Assembly: GCF_018128545.1 (NCBI RefSeq) | Contig: NZ_JAGSND010000006.1 | Location: 124,001 to 188,000, forward strand | Reading direction: 5' to 3' | Length of the DNA stretch: 64,000 bases | Origin: Sinanaerobacter chloroacetimidivorans | GTDB taxonomy: Bacteria; Bacillota; Clostridia; Peptostreptococcales; Anaerovoracaceae | In this document: positions 17,817 to 24,979 of the stretch, piece after piece | Layout: the number at the start of each line of letters is the position of its first letter | Position numbering within the stretch: the first letter of the stretch is position 1 | The notes under the pieces: generated by a model | The model's input: only the letters and a program-made list of their open reading frames with translations | What the model was told of the DNA's origin: nothing | Databases searched by the model: none | Program-made: the position numbers and the translations under genes

Positions 17817-19127
17817 CTAGTATACCATAAAATGTGGATTTTGCAAGTAAAAATTATGTTGTCCCTTTTTCAGCCTTATTAACACACGTACCATTTCATC
17901 AATTTCTTCCTTCGTGTTATAAAATGCAAGAGAGGGTCTTACCGAAGTCTCCATGCCAAATCGTCTCAAAACAGGCTGCGCACAATGGTGGCCGGTGCGG
18001 ACGGCGATGCCTTCCTTGCTCAAAGCGTTTCCAATTTTGTCGTTTGATAAACCATCTATAATAAAGGATATCACACTGGTTTTGTCTTCAGCAGTGCCTA
18101 AAAAAGTTAATCCTTGTATCTTATGCAAGGCTTCCATCGAATGTTCCAACAGGGAATGTTCGTATCGGCAGATATGCTCCATGCCGATACTTTCTACATA
18201 GTCAATTGCAGCACCCAGTCCGACAGCATCTGCGATATTTCCGGTTCCCGCTTCGAAACGATCTGGTGCAACTTTATACTGTGTACTTTCAAAGGTAACA
18301 TCCTGAATCATATTTCCGCCGCCCTGGTAAGGCGGCATTTCCTTTAAAAGATTTTCTTTGGCATATAAAACGCCGATCCCTGTGGGGCCATACAATTTAT
18401 GACCGGAAAATACATAAAAATCATAATCACAATCCGTAACATCAACTGCCAAATGAGATACTGCCTGGGCACCGTCTACCAGAATCTTTGCTCCGTGAGC
18501 ATGTGCCATCTTCGTCATTTGGGCAATCGGAGTGATGGTTCCCAGCACATTGGAAACGTGAGCTACACAGACCAATTTTGTCTTTGGATTCAACATCTTT
18601 TCATACTCATCCAGTTGTATCTGGCCATGGTCATCGATAGGAATCACCCTGAGTTTTGCATCGGTTTCCTCACTTATCATCTGCCAGGGAACAATGTTGG
18701 CGTGATGCTCCAGACAGGATACTAAAATCTCATCCTCAGGTTGGAGCGTTTGTTTTCCATAAGTATTTGCAACCAGATTAATGGCCTCCGTGGTTCCTCT
18801 TACGAAGACAATTTCCCTGGGAGACGATGCGTGAATAAATTTGCAAACCTTGCTTCTGGCCTCCTCATAGGCATCGGTGGCTCTCGCAGCCAAGGTATGC
18901 GCGCCCCTGTGAATATTTGAATTCTCGTGCAGGTAATATTGTGAAATGCGGTTTATTACAGCTGCCGGTTTCTGTGTAGTTGCTGCGTTATCCAGCCAGA
19001 TCAAGTCTTTTCCGTTTACTTTTTCGGATAAAATAGGAAAGTCTCTGCGCACTGCATGAACGGGGAATGGCTTCCCGCATGAATTTTTCAGGATACCGGG
19101 AACGGGAAGAAACTCATTTATAATCAT
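17817..19127 (-). CDS. SufS-type cysteine desulfurase, encapsulin cargo
   Basis: This 436-residue PLP enzyme removes sulfur from cysteine. Seen: the SufS/NifS class II core, PLP lysine (SGHKLYGPTG) and active-site Cys (RTGHHCAQP). Compared with free SufS proteins it has about 22 extra N-terminal residues (INEFLPVPGILKNSCGKPF) and a short C-terminal tail. It directly follows a Family 2A encapsulin gene, overlapping it by 14 bases; in that family the cysteine desulfurase is the cargo and is loaded through its N-terminal extension. ATG at 19127; a TTG at 19139 with a distant GGAG is the alternative. No SufU or SufBCD gene is adjacent. Confidence 0.9.
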   Translation of the reverse strand: MIINEFLPVPGILKNSCGKPFPVHAVRRDFPILSEKVNGKDLIWLDNAATTQKPAAVINRISQYYLHENSNIHRGAHTLAARATDAYEEARSKVCKFIHASSPREIVFVRGTTEAINLVANTYGKQTLQPEDEILVSCLEHHANIVPWQMISEETDAKLRVIPIDDHGQIQLDEYEKMLNPKTKLVCVAHVSNVLGTITPIAQMTKMAHAHGAKILVDGAQAVSHLAVDVTDCDYDFYVFSGHKLYGPTGIGVLYAKENLLKEMPPYQGGGNMIQDVTFESTQYKVAPDRFEAGTGNIADAVGLGAAIDYVESIGMEHICRYEHSLLEHSMEALHKIQGLTFLGTAEDKTSVISFIIDGLSNDKIGNALSKEGIAVRTGHHCAQPVLRRFGMETSVRPSLAFYNTKEEIDEMVRVLIRLKKGQHNFYLQNPHFMVY

Positions 19128-20088
19128 AGTAGTGCCCAATTTCTACATTCTCCAGCACTGCTGCCGCGTCAGAGGATAAGATGCAAGCCGAGCTGTAAAG
19201 CATGAGAAGATACATGCCAATCCCGCGATTGTCAATTCCCATAAATCGTACCGATAATCCTTCCGATTGTTCTCCCGGCAGATTGGCCTGATAGAGGCCG
19301 ATAACCCCCTGCTTTTCTTCTCCGGTACGAATTAACAAGATATTGGTAGATCCTGTCTGACCTTTTGGATTCTGCTCCCCATCCACTAAAAGCTTGTTGG
19401 TGGGAAGAATGGGGATTCCTCTCCAGGTCAAGACGCTGGATCCGTGAATCTGAATGGAAACCGGCGGAACTCCTCTTCTGGTGCATTCTCTGCCAAAGGC
19501 GGCGATGGCTTTTGGATGGGCAAGAAAAAAGGAAGGTTCTTTCCATACCTTTGCAATGAGTTCATCTAAATCATCCGGCGTAGGATACCCATTGCGGGTT
19601 CGAATTCTCTGAGATTCCGATATATTCTTTAACAGGCCGTAATCCTCACTGTTTATCAGCAGGTTCTCCTGTTTTTCTCTCAGGCATTCCACACTCAGCC
19701 GCAGTTGTTCCTCACTTTGGCTATAAGGGCTGCTGTATATATCCGAAACACGCGTACTGATTTTGACAATGGAGGAAATGGGATTAAGCAGGTATTCTCT
19801 TGGCTTGGTTTCGTATTCTATATAGCCTTCGGGAATGTTTTCAAAGCCTACTTCAGAGTTCATCATATCTAAAGGAAAATCTCCTTCAATTACTTTATTC
19901 AATCGAAAAATACCCGTTTCCAAAGGCTTCCACTCCAGCATTCTGGAAAGCCATCTGGGCGTAATAGATTCAAGCTGGGGAACTGTTTTTACCACATCTG
20001 CCAACTGATAAGCAGCATCGGAAGTCAAAAAATCTTTTTTGACTTTCTGATAGGTCTCCGTATTTTGATAATTATTTTGTTCTTCCAT
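19114..20088 (-). CDS. Family 2A encapsulin shell protein (SrpI-like)
   Basis: A 324-residue HK97-fold shell protein of the Family 2A encapsulins. Recognisable segments are the extended N-terminal arm with ITPRWLSRMLEWKPLETGIFRLNK, the E-loop-like GFENIPEGYIEYETKPREYLLNPIS, ISTRVSDIYSSPYSQSEEQLR, and IHGSSVLTWRGIPILPTNKL. No cyclic-nucleotide-binding insertion is present, which separates it from Family 2B. The ATG at 20088 has AAGGAGG 7 bases upstream. It is followed by the cysteine desulfurase cargo in one operon. Expected to form a closed cytosolic shell; in other species such shells handle or store sulfur. Confidence 0.9.
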   Translation of the reverse strand: MEEQNNYQNTETYQKVKKDFLTSDAAYQLADVVKTVPQLESITPRWLSRMLEWKPLETGIFRLNKVIEGDFPLDMMNSEVGFENIPEGYIEYETKPREYLLNPISSIVKISTRVSDIYSSPYSQSEEQLRLSVECLREKQENLLINSEDYGLLKNISESQRIRTRNGYPTPDDLDELIAKVWKEPSFFLAHPKAIAAFGRECTRRGVPPVSIQIHGSSVLTWRGIPILPTNKLLVDGEQNPKGQTGSTNILLIRTGEEKQGVIGLYQANLPGEQSEGLSVRFMGIDNRGIGMYLLMLYSSACILSSDAAAVLENVEIGHYYDYK

Positions 20089-20110
20089 AAAATCGCCTCC
20101 TTCTGTTACA

Positions 20111-20148
20111 TAGTTCGCCAACCATCAATTTTCAAATTAGGCGAGCTA
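20111..20148. promoter_or_regulatory. Inverted repeat upstream of encapsulin
   Basis: TAGTTCGCC (20111-20119) and GGCGAGCTA (20140-20148) are reverse complements with one mismatch, spaced by 20 bases. They lie 23-60 bases before the encapsulin start, where a repressor or activator site is plausible. No known operator is recognised. Confidence 0.45.
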
Positions 20149-20528: not shown

Positions 20529-20804
20529 ATGATGGATCGTCGAAGTGAACTGTTTCAAAAAATTCAGATGGTCAGTTTTGTACTGGTTGACACCAATCTT
20601 TATCTCGATACGCACCCAGATGACAGAGCGGCTCTGAATTATTATCATAAATACCGAACATTAATGGATCAAATGGTACAGGAGTATACGGATAATTATG
20701 GGCCCTTAACTCCCTATACTGTAAAATCAGCAGATATGTGGACCTGGATTGATCAGCCATGGCCATGGGAAAAGGAGGCAAATAGCTATGTGGAGTTACG
20801 ATAA
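20529..20804 (+). CDS. cotJB: Spore coat protein CotJB
   Basis: A 91-residue protein with the CotJB pattern (FQKIQMVSFVLVDTNLYLDTHP, ALNYYHKYRTLMDQ, YGPLTPYTV, WPWEKEANSYVE). It overlaps the start of cotJC by 17 bases. Second gene of the operon; small coat component needed with CotJA and CotJC. Confidence 0.93.
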   Translation: MMDRRSELFQKIQMVSFVLVDTNLYLDTHPDDRAALNYYHKYRTLMDQMVQEYTDNYGPLTPYTVKSADMWTWIDQPWPWEKEANSYVELR

Positions 20805-20898
20805 AAAATTGCAGTACCCCGTCAAAATTGCATGTCCCAATCCTGCAATAGCTAAGATTATCATTACACAATATGGAGGACCAAATGGCTTTCAGTGA
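20788..20898 (+). pseudogene. cotJC: 5' fragment of split cotJC
   Basis: The ATG at 20788 (AGGAGG 9 bases upstream) begins MWSYDKKLQYPVKIACPNP and continues to QYGGP at the recombination core, then runs into element sequence and stops at a TGA (36 codons). The first 29-31 residues match the N-terminus of CotJC; the rest of the protein is found 3.6 kb away. This is an interrupted gene rather than a decayed one: both halves are intact and in matching frame. Confidence 0.93.
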
Positions 20899-20926
20899 TG
20901 ATTTTCAGAAATTATCCGATAGGATT

Positions 20927-21328
20927 CTATTCTTTCCCCGGCAGCTTTTCGCCGCATTTGTTACAATAAACAAAACTTTCTTCTACTTCCGTTCCGCAAT
21001 AGGGACAGAAAGCACTGTTATGTAATTGCCTTGAGATCGTAACCTCAGATTTATTGCTTTTTCTAAATGTTTCATTGAGTGGATCCGGTTCTTCTTCCCC
21101 ATCTGTAATGTCATAAACGGAATAGCGATTTTCACCGGTGGCATTTCTAAAATGATAAACCGCCTGGACGATACCCATTACGATAAAAATGATACCAAAT
21201 AATGCAAAAAATATAGGCGCCCCCATGGACATTGCAAAAAACGTCCATATGATTCCAAAAATCGCGGCGGCAATGGATCCGATCCCCCCCATCATGGACG
21301 GTGCTCTTCCCGGCTTAATGCTTTTCAT
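20927..21328 (-). CDS. Zinc-ribbon membrane protein, element-borne
   Basis: A 133-residue protein with an N-terminal KPGRAPSMMGG motif, two membrane helices (about 15-55), a polar linker and a C-terminal zinc ribbon (CPYCGTEVEESFVYCNKCG: two CxxC pairs). Proteins of this layout are common in Clostridia; function unknown. It lies 45 bases inside the left junction of the cotJC element, on the strand opposite to cotJC. Confidence 0.75.
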   Translation of the reverse strand: MKSIKPGRAPSMMGGIGSIAAAIFGIIWTFFAMSMGAPIFFALFGIIFIVMGIVQAVYHFRNATGENRYSVYDITDGEEEPDPLNETFRKSNKSEVTISRQLHNSAFCPYCGTEVEESFVYCNKCGEKLPGKE

Positions 21329-21509
21329 AAATGATCCCCCTGTGTTTTTTATTCTTTTCCATTATATCAGGTGCATCAAAAAAAAGTCACCCTTTTATGA
21401 AGCGGTAAAATGTTCTTTTTGCGCTGAACATTTTACCGCTTATATGGATAACTCTTTCTTTTGCATTCTCTTAATTTTCATAATCTGGTGCCGGAAAGCA
21501 GTATCTGGA

Positions 21510-21917
21510 TCACCTTTTGGAACAGCTTAAGAAGAAACTGTTTACTAAGGATATCAGAGAAACCAACGTGCCCATCGCAATCATTGCCGGGGCTCGCAAT
21601 GAACTGCAGGTACACTCCGTACTGCAGCTGCCGTCACAGAACCCAATTATAATTGTAGCCATTAAGGCTGTCAGAATTCCCAGCATAACCATTCCGACAC
21701 TGATTCCCCATCTTGCTTGATTTGATTCCGAGGCGATGAAAAAAACAGCCATCAACAGAATCATAACTCCGATAATAAACTCTGCTTTCGCTGCCGTCGG
21801 GCATTTCATACCCATGTCCATACAATGTTCGCAGGTTCTAAGTATAAAATTAGGAACCACGGAGATCATTGCACCTAGAATTCCCAGGATAACACCCCAA
21901 ATTATTTTACCAGTCAA
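21510..21917 (-). CDS. DUF4418 family membrane protein
   Basis: A 135-residue protein with four hydrophobic helices and the conserved Cys-containing segment TCEHCMDMGMKCPTAA between helices 1 and 2, plus CDGSCSTECTC later, as in DUF4418. The start is a TTG at 21917 with AGGAGG 7 bases upstream; an ATG at 21947 has no site. Function unknown; the paired cysteines suggest redox or metal binding. It lies in the cotJC element. Confidence 0.8.
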   Translation of the reverse strand: MTGKIIWGVILGILGAMISVVPNFILRTCEHCMDMGMKCPTAAKAEFIIGVMILLMAVFFIASESNQARWGISVGMVMLGILTALMATIIIGFCDGSCSTECTCSSLRAPAMIAMGTLVSLISLVNSFFLSCSKR

Positions 21918-22010
21918 TGATAACCCTCCTATCAAATAGTTTTTCATTTACAAACGCTACTTCATTTTATGCGGACAAAGGTATGGATATGAACATGTTG
22001 TCCATGGTAT

Positions 22011-22211
22011 TTATTCAATCCCGTATTTTTTTTTCGTTTCGAAAATTCTTCGGGACTTATACTCGTTGTATGTACGTTCCTGACTTCTGATAGCCCTGAT
22101 CAGCGCTCTTTCCTCTTCAAGGCTTTTTGAGTAAGCTTTGCCAATTTCACACGTGCTGTGACAGGCAGGATACCTATTCTTGCAGTCTAAACAGGGTGAC
22201 TTACTTTTCAT
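22011..22211 (-). CDS. Small Cys-rich charged protein, element-borne
   Basis: A 66-residue protein: an N-terminal four-Cys cluster (CLDCKNRYPACHSTC) that could bind zinc, then a charged helix (SLEEERALIRAIRSQERTY). Similar small proteins occur in phages and integrative elements. AAAGGAG lies 8 bases before the ATG at 22211. Its size and position in a serine-recombinase element make it a possible recombination directionality factor, which is inference only. Confidence 0.65.
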   Translation of the reverse strand: MKSKSPCLDCKNRYPACHSTCEIGKAYSKSLEEERALIRAIRSQERTYNEYKSRRIFETKKKYGIE

Positions 22212-22315
22212 TGTCATCTCTCCTTTGTGTTTAAAATATTATGTAAACCATCGATTGCCTCTATAAAAAATTTTTCAACAGACTTCAGATATTATAATTT
22301 TAAGGATTTCGATAT

Positions 22316-22509
22316 TTTTCCACAAATTTTTCAAAATCGCATACAATTTTATCCAAGGCTCTGTGTGGATAACTTTACCCCTCATAAGAGGTGAAATTTC
22401 AACATATTTTTTAAATACAAAATGATTTTTCCAACACTTATCCACAGGCAAATGCATTTTACGCAGAAACCTTCCCTATACTTTCCACATTTCAACTGTT
22501 TTTTCCACA
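22316..22509. promoter_or_regulatory. Cluster of DnaA-box-like 9-mers
   Basis: Perfect TTATCCACA at 22438-22446 (plus) and 22364-22372 (minus, read as TGTGGATAA). Near matches: TTTTCCACA 22316-22324 and 22501-22509, CTTTCCACA 22481-22489, TTATCCAAG 22349-22357. The surrounding 200 bases are very AT-rich. Six sites in under 200 bases is origin-like density, yet the cluster lies in the cotJC element and no dnaA gene is in the window. Confidence 0.7.
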
Positions 22510-22640
22510 TTGGGTTTTATGAAATGCACCCATCGGCAAATGCCGCATATTATATAGTAAAATCACCTAATCGATCAACTCCAACAGAACTTCAGAAATG
22601 AAGTGATAACCTTAATCGTAACGATTCATTAGTTTTCGAT

Positions 22641-22665
22641 GCGCCCGCTGTAGCGGGCGCTTTTT
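22641..22665 (+). terminator. Strong intrinsic terminator
   Basis: GCGCCCGC and GCGGGCGC form an 8-bp GC stem (loop TGTA) followed by TTTTT. No coding sequence on the plus strand lies upstream for more than 1.7 kb, so the transcript it ends is likely a small non-coding RNA or a leader. Confidence 0.88.
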
Positions 22666-22998
22666 GATTCCAAAATTGGATCCAAATTTTAAGGCTGCTC
22701 CTGCTGCTGTGTGCTGACGTAACCTGCCGCAGTCATAAATTTATCTGTGAGGTTTTGGGATACCCGATCTTTCTCCTTGTCACACAGCTGATCCCACCTT
22801 TTCTCTGCTCTTTTTTCTTCCGAAACTGTTACAAAAAAAACCTCAGCAGATACCTCCTTTTTTTTCATCCCTCCGCCTCCTTTCTAAATCCTATGAAGGG
22901 AAACGGATTTCTATTACAGGTCTTTTCTTTTACATTTCTCAGTAAAATATTAGGAGCATCTCAAAGCGCATATTGAAAAATCTTGAAAGGGGGTCAAC

Positions 22999-24438
22999 AT
23001 GAGGCAAGCAGCTGTTTATATTCGTGTTTCTACGGAAGAACAGACAGAGTACTCTCCTGACGCCCAGTTAAAGGCCGTTAGGGAATACGCTGAGAAGAAC
23101 GACTTACAGATCCTGCCGGAGCATATCTATATAGACGAGGGCATTAGCGGAAAAAGTACGAAAAACCGGGCTGCTTTCAACCAAATGATCGGAAAGGCAA
23201 AGGAGAAGCCAAAGCCCTTTGACGCGATTCTGTTATGGAAATTTTCCCGTTTTGCAAGAAACCGGGAGGACAGCATCGTTTATAAGTCCATGCTTCGCAG
23301 ACAGCTAGATATTGAAGTTATTTCCGTTACCGAAAAGATCGGTGATGACAAAATATCGGTACTGATAGAAGCCTTTATCGAGGCCATGGATGAATACTAC
23401 AGCATCAATCTTGCCGAAGAGGTAAAGAAGGGAATGACAGAAAAAGCATCCAGAGGCGAATTTCAAGCCGCGCCGCCCTTCGGATACCGGAAGCCGGCAG
23501 GCTGTCCCCTTCAAGTGGCTCCGGAGGAGGCTCCTTATGTGCGTTATATATTTGAGCGATTCTTAAGCGGAACGAGTTGTTTTGTCATTGCCAAAAATCT
23601 GAATTCCATGGGAATTCGGACGAAACGAGGAAACAAATTTGAAAGACGAAATATCGAATACATTTTAAATAATCCCGTATATACAGGTTATGTAAGATGG
23701 ACGCCAGGCGGAAAAACGTTAAGCAAACGGATTTTTAACAGTCCTGAAACCTTAGTCATAAAATCAGATCATATGCCGATTATAGAGGAGCCTTTGTTTC
23801 ATGCAGTGGAGGAAAAGCTGAAAAAAAGAACACGCTCGCAAGGGACAAAAGGAAGGCCCGAGGACAGGAAACATTATTTATCGGGTTTTATCAAGTGCGG
23901 AGCCTGTGGTTCTACTCTGGCGTACAGCCGCTCCCACGACGGCTTTCAATGTACCGGCTATTCACGAGGCTTATGCAGTATCTCACACTATATCCAAAGA
24001 CAAAGAATAGAAAATGCTGTCCTGCAGGTTCTCGACGGTATTTCCTATACCGGAAATTATAGAAGAAAAGACCACGGCAGCAGCTGCAGTGCAAGCGAAA
24101 AAAAAGAGCTCATGGAGAAAGAAATCACAGCTTTGGAAAAAATGCTGGAGCGTGCAAGAGAAGCATATTTATCGGAGATCGACTCCCTCATGGAATATGA
24201 AAAAATAAAAGAGACCCTTCACAGAAAAATTCAGAAGATAAAAACTGCTCAGGCGGAACTTGGGCTCCAACCTTTCCAGCCCTGCTCCGATCCATCCATA
24301 TCCGAGTCTTCAAAAATGAGCACCATTCTTACCGGTGCAGATTCTGATGACACAAAGGCAGCCGCCCTTGCTGAAATTGTGGAAAAGATCATCTATCAGC
24401 GAGCAAAGGATAAAATCATGGTTTACTTGTACCTGTAA
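22999..24438 (+). CDS. Large serine site-specific recombinase
   Basis: A 479-residue integrase with an N-terminal resolvase domain (catalytic Ser in YIRVSTEEQ, Arg residues in LLWKFSRFARN), a recombinase domain (FGYRKPAG, NPVYTGYVRW), a zinc ribbon (CGACG...CTGY...C) and a coiled-coil tail (about 365-440). AAAGGGGGT lies before the ATG. It is the same type as SpoIVCA and SprA, which excise sporulation elements. It ends 34 bases from the right core, in the same direction as cotJC. It presumably excises the element in the mother cell. Confidence 0.94.
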   Translation: MRQAAVYIRVSTEEQTEYSPDAQLKAVREYAEKNDLQILPEHIYIDEGISGKSTKNRAAFNQMIGKAKEKPKPFDAILLWKFSRFARNREDSIVYKSMLRRQLDIEVISVTEKIGDDKISVLIEAFIEAMDEYYSINLAEEVKKGMTEKASRGEFQAAPPFGYRKPAGCPLQVAPEEAPYVRYIFERFLSGTSCFVIAKNLNSMGIRTKRGNKFERRNIEYILNNPVYTGYVRWTPGGKTLSKRIFNSPETLVIKSDHMPIIEEPLFHAVEEKLKKRTRSQGTKGRPEDRKHYLSGFIKCGACGSTLAYSRSHDGFQCTGYSRGLCSISHYIQRQRIENAVLQVLDGISYTGNYRRKDHGSSCSASEKKELMEKEITALEKMLERAREAYLSEIDSLMEYEKIKETLHRKIQKIKTAQAELGLQPFQPCSDPSISESSKMSTILTGADSDDTKAAALAEIVEKIIYQRAKDKIMVYLYL

Positions 24439-24472
24439 TACCACAGTTCCTTATCATAGGATATTGCCATTT

Positions 24473-24979
24473 GGAGGACCGGATGGTGAATTGGCCGCAT
24501 CTATGCGTTATTTATCCCAGCGATATGCGATGCCTTACAAAGAGGCCGTAGGCGTACTGAACGATGTTGGCACAGAAGAGCTTGCTCATTTCGAAATGAT
24601 TGGAGCAATCGTACATCAATTGACAAGAGATATGACCATGGAACAAATCAAAGAATCAGGCTTTGATACCTATTTTGTGGATCATACCGCAGGAATATGG
24701 CCACAGGCTGCTTCCGGCATGCCGTTTTCTTCAACATTCTTCCAATCCAAAGGCGACCCTATTACCGACTTGGTTGAAGATATGGCTGCAGAGCAAAAAG
24801 CAAGAACAACTTATGATAACATCCTTCGTCTTGTAGACGATCCGGATGTCAGAGATCCCATCAAATTCCTGCGTGAACGCGAGGTCGTTCATTTCCAGAG
24901 GTTCGGCGAAGCCTTAAGGGTTGTCCAGGATCATCTGGATTCCAGGAATTTCTATGCTTTCAATCCGGCTTTTAAATAA
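24473..24979 (+). pseudogene. cotJC: 3' fragment of split cotJC
   Basis: From the right core the frame GGPDGELAASMRYLSQRYAMP runs 168 codons to a TAA with the full remaining CotJC sequence, a manganese-catalase-like ferritin fold (GTEELAHFEMIGAIVHQLT, GMPFSSTFFQSKGDP, DMAAEQKARTTYDNI, REREVVHFQRFGEAL, each with likely metal-binding Glu/His). It has no start codon of its own that would give a complete protein. After excision it joins the 29-codon 5' part in frame. Spore coat function, perhaps peroxide detoxification. Confidence 0.92.

Follow-up and report, generated by a model that had tools for sequence, protein, structure and literature searches.

The stretch of DNA analysed here (64,000 nucleotides from Sinanaerobacter chloroacetimidivorans, hereafter the window) contains cotJC, a spore coat gene of the manganese-catalase type (20803-24979), which is split by a 3.6-kb element. 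The N-terminal half of cotJC ends in ...ITQYGGP near 20882 and the C-terminal half restarts with GGPDGELAASMRYL... from about 24474, both halves matching the respective ends of a normal CotJC, and a recombinase gene adjoins the right junction. At 17817-20121, a gene for the shell of a type 2A encapsulin (SrpI-like) adjoins a class-V aminotransferase gene (cysteine desulfurase-like). A cluster of DnaA boxes had been predicted to lie inside an excisable element, and this location is borne out by the split cotJC and by the 9-bp core found at both junctions. The features are listed below.

20874-24480, no strand: cotJC-splitting excisable element with the window array; 9-bp core TGGAGGACC at 20874-20882 and 24472-24480, serine recombinase at 22999-24438
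22237-22471, + strand: the conserved array in full, present five times in this genome (match to model R1, five-copy alignment)
22239-22249, + strand: motif A, TTATGTAAACC; family consensus TTATGTNAACY
22272-22280, + strand: motif B, TTTTCAACA, almost invariant and a weak variant of the DnaA box; one copy from another family of the order (f9) reads TTATCAACA
22316-22324, + strand: DnaA box C, TTTTCCACA
22331-22348, no strand: TCAAAATCGCATACAATT, degenerate version of the conserved palindrome AAATTGTATACAATTT (five-copy alignment)
22349-22357, + strand: DnaA-like box E, TTATCCAAG; family consensus TTaTcCaca
22364-22372, - strand: DnaA box F, perfect, reverse, reading TGTGGATAA on the + strand
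22391-22404, no strand: motif G, GTGAAATTTCAACA; family form TTGAAATTTCAAC, an inverted repeat
22438-22446, + strand: DnaA box H, perfect, ACTTATCCACAGG
22466-22471, + strand: GAAACC, right end of the genome's five copies, weak in relatives
22481-22509, + strand: two extra weak boxes, CTTTCCACA and TTTTCCACA, beyond the conserved unit

To the right of the array, at 22641-22667, a GC-rich inverted repeat (GCGCCCGCT/AGCGGGCGC) is followed by a run of T and is likely a terminator.

Extent and copies of the array

The stretch 22237-22471 is a conserved intergenic unit of about 235 bp, in which DnaA boxes and further motifs follow one another in a set order and at near-fixed spacing. Within the window, perfect TTATCCACA boxes occur at 22364-22372 (- strand) and 22438-22446 (+ strand), TTTTCCACA boxes at 22316 and 22501, and weaker boxes with two mismatches at 22272, 22349 and 22481. 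The window maximum, four boxes with at most one mismatch per 200 bp, is reached at the cluster, and Markov control sequences (order 2, n = 40, window length) never held more than two such boxes per 200 bp. With two perfect boxes in opposite orientation, and a density above that of all 40 controls, the cluster is real and beyond chance. The span originally assigned to it, 22316-22509, holds up for the boxes between 22316 and the end of the unit; those at 22481 and 22501 lie outside 22237-22471, and the left part of the unit, 22237-22315, had been missed.

A DNA search with the region led to three other, diverged places in the same genome, and a pattern search to one more. The genome thus carries five full-length copies of 232-235 bp, whose alignment shows motifs kept and spacers diverged. 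All five score 147-157 bits with a sequence-only model (R1), of which the window copy covers positions 1-235 at 152 bits, and the next distinct place in the same genome scores 14 bits. The motif order common to the five copies is TTATGTAAACC, TTTTCAACA, TTTTCCACA, AAATTGTATACAATTT followed by TATCCA, TGTGGATAA, TTTCAAY, TTATCCACAG and GAAACC. The palindrome AAATTGTATACAATTT is perfect in the four other copies and degenerate (ATCGCATACAATTT) in the window copy. An SOS box or an operator of the GntR type was considered as a conceivable reading of the inverted repeats of the array. In the 414 kb sampled of this genome, the perfect box TTATCCACA occurs 12 times: nine times within array copies, twice flanking dnaA and once elsewhere.

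The four other copies of this genome lie in ordinary chromosomal gaps, one of them (on contig C43) at the cwlD locus, and the copies of relatives are placed likewise, most often beside cwlD. The simplest view of the window copy is that the cotJC element carries, or has captured, a chromosomal copy of the array. The other copies show that the main role of the array is chromosomal. Service to an excised circle, a possibility raised in the original prediction, thus finds no support as the purpose of the cluster, and its closeness to dnaB and ssb looks incidental, the usual place in relatives being beside cwlD.

Conservation among relatives

Using a broader model and a threshold of E of 1e-6 or better, the array was detected in 176 of 197 sampled genomes of the family, taken as Anaerovoracaceae, including 104 of the 109 of good quality, and in 85 of 92 genera. 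A scan of named genomes gave 88 stretches matching the pattern, with carriers named Emergencia, Anaerovorax, Aminicella, [Clostridium] aminobutyricum, [Eubacterium] infirmum, Family XIII and Bacillota; the matches in Saprospiraceae and Lewinella look like chance or bin contamination. In a few good-quality or large genomes of the family the array was not detected (G099, G158 and G193, all of genus g86, and G008), and these are possibly losses, useful for comparison. Three genomes of family f9 hold diverged homologs (54, 46 and 43 bits) that keep the DnaA boxes and lack motif A and the GTATAC palindrome; therefore, of all parts of the array the DnaA boxes are shared most widely. One of these homologs lies near cwlD, whose side and strand are those seen in Anaerovoracaceae. 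Further families of the order gave weaker matches, of about 1e-5 to 1e-8.

Across about 90 sequences, motifs A and B are 33-35 bp apart, B and C 43-45 bp, and F and H 73-75 bp; the distance from C to F is 48 or 49 in all but one sequence, and that from GTATAC to F is 25 in 70 of 71. In boxes C and H the third base is only A or T, a restriction that for box C stems in part from the search pattern, and the CCACA part is fixed. An A or T at the third base with a fixed CCACA is as expected for DnaA boxes.

Two readings that rest on base pairing were considered and rejected. A hairpin formed by the two inverted DnaA boxes has its third-base pairing broken in 31 of 80 sequences (24 T/T, 7 A/A), with no clear covariation. 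A structured RNA finds neither an Rfam match over the array at five loci nor a conserved fold, the consensus fold energies being -1.4 and -4.6 kcal/mol with a single helix of 5-6 bp.

Copy number ranges from 1 to about 11, with one copy in most small genomes and often more in larger ones: about 11 in A. odorimutans, 5 in S. chloroacetimidivorans and 7 in another genome, of 4.2 Mb, although some genomes of 3.4 Mb have one. Pairs of arrays in the same orientation were seen at G067:C11:69611 and 70354 (0.7 kb apart) and at G227:C1:4605869 and 4607884 (2 kb apart). It is conceivable that the array is a selfish or mobile repeat that serves no function for its host, as the multiple copies in larger genomes, the copy inside a recombinase element and neighbouring pairs of like orientation, 0.7-2 kb apart in two species, would allow. 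We regard this as hardly probable at all, however, given a locus that is the same family-wide, spacers that have diverged around fixed motifs, a strong polarity (below) and the lack of any match to the pattern of the named-genome scan in 2.9 million viral contigs. A phage origin was rejected on the same absence of viral matches.

Position and polarity on the chromosome

As the original prediction had it, the window holds no dnaA; the gene is located about 81 kb further right on the contig that carries the window array. GC skew (20-kb scale) is negative for tens of kb on both sides of the array, and its sign flips at dnaA rather than at the cluster. In E. timonensis, an array (on contig C8) lies 856 kb from dnaA, where the skew flips. 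With both the skew switch and dnaA elsewhere, identity with oriC was rejected despite the cluster of DnaA boxes, in agreement with the claim that the cluster is not the main origin. The array could still be an origin, either a second one for the chromosome or that of an excised cotJC circle, considering its multiple DnaA boxes, its AT-rich gap and the place of the window copy on a circle that excision could produce. This is very unlikely in our judgement: no skew switch was found at arrays in the genomes sampled, relatives mostly have a single copy far from dnaA, and none of this genome's other copies was seen in an element of the cotJC type.

The terminus was likewise considered. In [Eubacterium] infirmum the array is almost exactly opposite dnaA, yet no skew flip occurs there, and in other genomes arrays lie elsewhere on the chromosome arms, so that a terminus or dif site was rejected. 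No canonical Firmicutes dif was found in nine genomes of the family by consensus pattern, nor by score around the places where the skew of E. timonensis and of G120 flips; the dif of Anaerovoracaceae may be divergent. Distance from oriC varies between 0.17 and 0.94 of the half-chromosome. Five complete genomes (2.8-4.9 Mb) have one copy at 0.17-0.22, smaller genomes have theirs at 0.25-0.55, and extra copies fall at 0.36-0.94.

In most relatives examined, an AraC-type or DUF3881-like gene lies on one side of the array, while on the other cwlD adjoins with its 3' end or a gene of the alanyl-tRNA-editing type with its start (names assigned by eye, except for the cwlD amidase and AraC). Beside the array of Emergencia sp. 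1XD21-10 (L255, 6317-8649), cwlD, the second sporulation-linked gene found split, is interrupted near codon 56 by the gene of a serine recombinase, possibly a further excisable element. The flanking genes are convergent, co-directional or divergent depending on the species, and this variation indicates that the array does not belong to any one promoter. A DnaA-responsive control region for the transcription of neighbours (the AraC-type gene, cwlD or others) would be in keeping with the role of DnaA as transcription factor at several promoters of B. subtilis (PMC4447404) and with the left end of the array abutting the start of the AraC-type gene in many species. Nevertheless, the locus lies between convergent 3' ends in many species and the other copies of this genome have unrelated neighbours, and we consider such a role very improbable.

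The orientation of the array closely follows the direction of replication. In all five copies of S. chloroacetimidivorans the array + strand is the C-rich strand, and a replication fork should therefore meet box H first and motif A last. Six other genomes show this orientation in all 21 of their copies and E. timonensis in all three; among complete or near-complete genomes 17 of 19 copies have it, and in a set of 93 loci 86 do. These sets overlap, and copies of the same genome may be related by duplication, so that they are not fully independent. Among the copies apparently outside the cwlD locus, about 31, polarity is kept with one exception. Other exceptions are one copy in G345, the inverted pairs of L115 and L148, and a few loci whose skew is close to zero. 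The clearest of these are L115 (4006-6191) and L148 (2118-4344), where two hydrolase-like genes lie between opposite arrays spaced about 1.8 kb from each other. From gene-strand bias by itself, an effect weaker than the polarity seen would probably be expected. To our knowledge, the polarity question is not raised by known DnaA control loci.

Such polarity could mean that the array is a polar site of chromosome organisation or one related to the fork, where DnaA or other proteins on the array act on the fork, on condensin (SMC) or on DNA translocases moving from origin to terminus, and where motif A is occupied by XerD alone. An orientation that nearly always tracks the direction of replication, including all but one of the about 31 copies apparently outside the cwlD locus, speaks for it, as do the presence of copies along both arms and the resemblance of motif A to the XerD arm of dif. 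Against it, the XerC arm and a conserved left flank are absent, the f9 homologs lack motif A, it is the DnaA boxes that are shared most widely, and no canonical dif was found for comparison. All things considered, this explanation is rather unlikely. A mixed form, in which the array is an element that reads direction, with DnaA and one or more other proteins forming a polar complex that, by sensing the passing fork or condensin or by acting on it, would couple it to initiation control, is an equally tentative idea.

A candidate site of DnaA control

The explanation that we favour, with some reserve, is that the cluster is a copy of a conserved chromosomal DnaA-control array outside oriC, probably working like datA, DARS or the clusters of B. 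subtilis. We infer binding of DnaA from the sequence of the boxes, the A or T at position 3 and the normal DNA-binding domain at the C-terminus of this genome's DnaA (Bac_DnaA_C, 3.5e-32). A second protein is presumably involved, and control of initiation would be the output. Several DnaA molecules would sit at fixed spacing on boxes C, E, F and H, and possibly on B, and another protein would probably occupy the GTATAC palindrome and the TTGAAATTTCAAC repeat, giving an ordered nucleoprotein complex. Passage of the fork doubles each copy, and the complex would then reduce, or set anew, the supply of DnaA for the following initiation, either by holding DnaA or by altering its bound nucleotide. 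Some observations speak against this DnaA-control reading: the strong polarity is unexpected and unexplained for a simple sink, copy number runs from 1 to about 11, a few good-quality genomes have no array, and the distance from oriC is variable. The DnaA-titrating or regulatory site of the original prediction fits a multi-box array of DnaA type kept outside oriC across the family; that earlier reading is partly supported, since its statements on oriC and regulation fit, its link to a circle finds no support as a purpose and that to dnaB and ssb looks incidental.

DnaA of E. coli is regulated by datA, DARS1 and DARS2 (PMC4585315), and in B. subtilis, deletion of all six DnaA-box clusters outside oriC leads to early initiation (PMC5295017). 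According to a 2026 review, datA, DARS1 and DARS2 are absent from B. subtilis, and it is unknown whether regulators balancing DnaA-ATP against DnaA-ADP exist in this species (PMC13220808). DnaA control away from the origin is poorly understood in Gram-positive bacteria, and an array with defined borders, single-copy in many species, offers a concrete locus that can be deleted. No description of it was found in the open-licence papers searched; it looks like an undescribed replication control site, and its polarity raises a further question.

Compared with known systems, the array shares its 9-mers with the DnaA-box regions of oriC that flank dnaA, including AGTTATCCACAGG at about C48:228138, but it has no GC-skew switch, lies away from dnaA and has another motif order. 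With dif/XerD sites it has in common that motif A resembles the XerD arm; it differs in having no XerC arm, no recombination core and no place at the skew-defined terminus. Where a dif site has XerC and XerD arms around a 6-bp centre, neither a conserved XerC arm nor a conserved left flank was found beside motif A. Like the DnaA-box clusters of B. subtilis, it lies outside oriC in a Gram-positive lineage (PMC5295017), but those are described as separate clusters, several of them at promoters, whereas the array is one ordered unit, repeated and orthologous family-wide. In form it is also like datA, DARS1 and DARS2 of Escherichia coli, which are non-coding, lie outside oriC and have 3-6 DnaA boxes at conserved spacing (PMC4585315, PMC5295017); the array, too, is a non-coding set of DnaA boxes outside oriC with conserved spacing. 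It differs from them in being multi-copy in some species, in its near-fixed polarity and in the additional GTATAC and TTGAAATTTCAAC motifs, and the likeness would be one of function rather than of sequence kinship.
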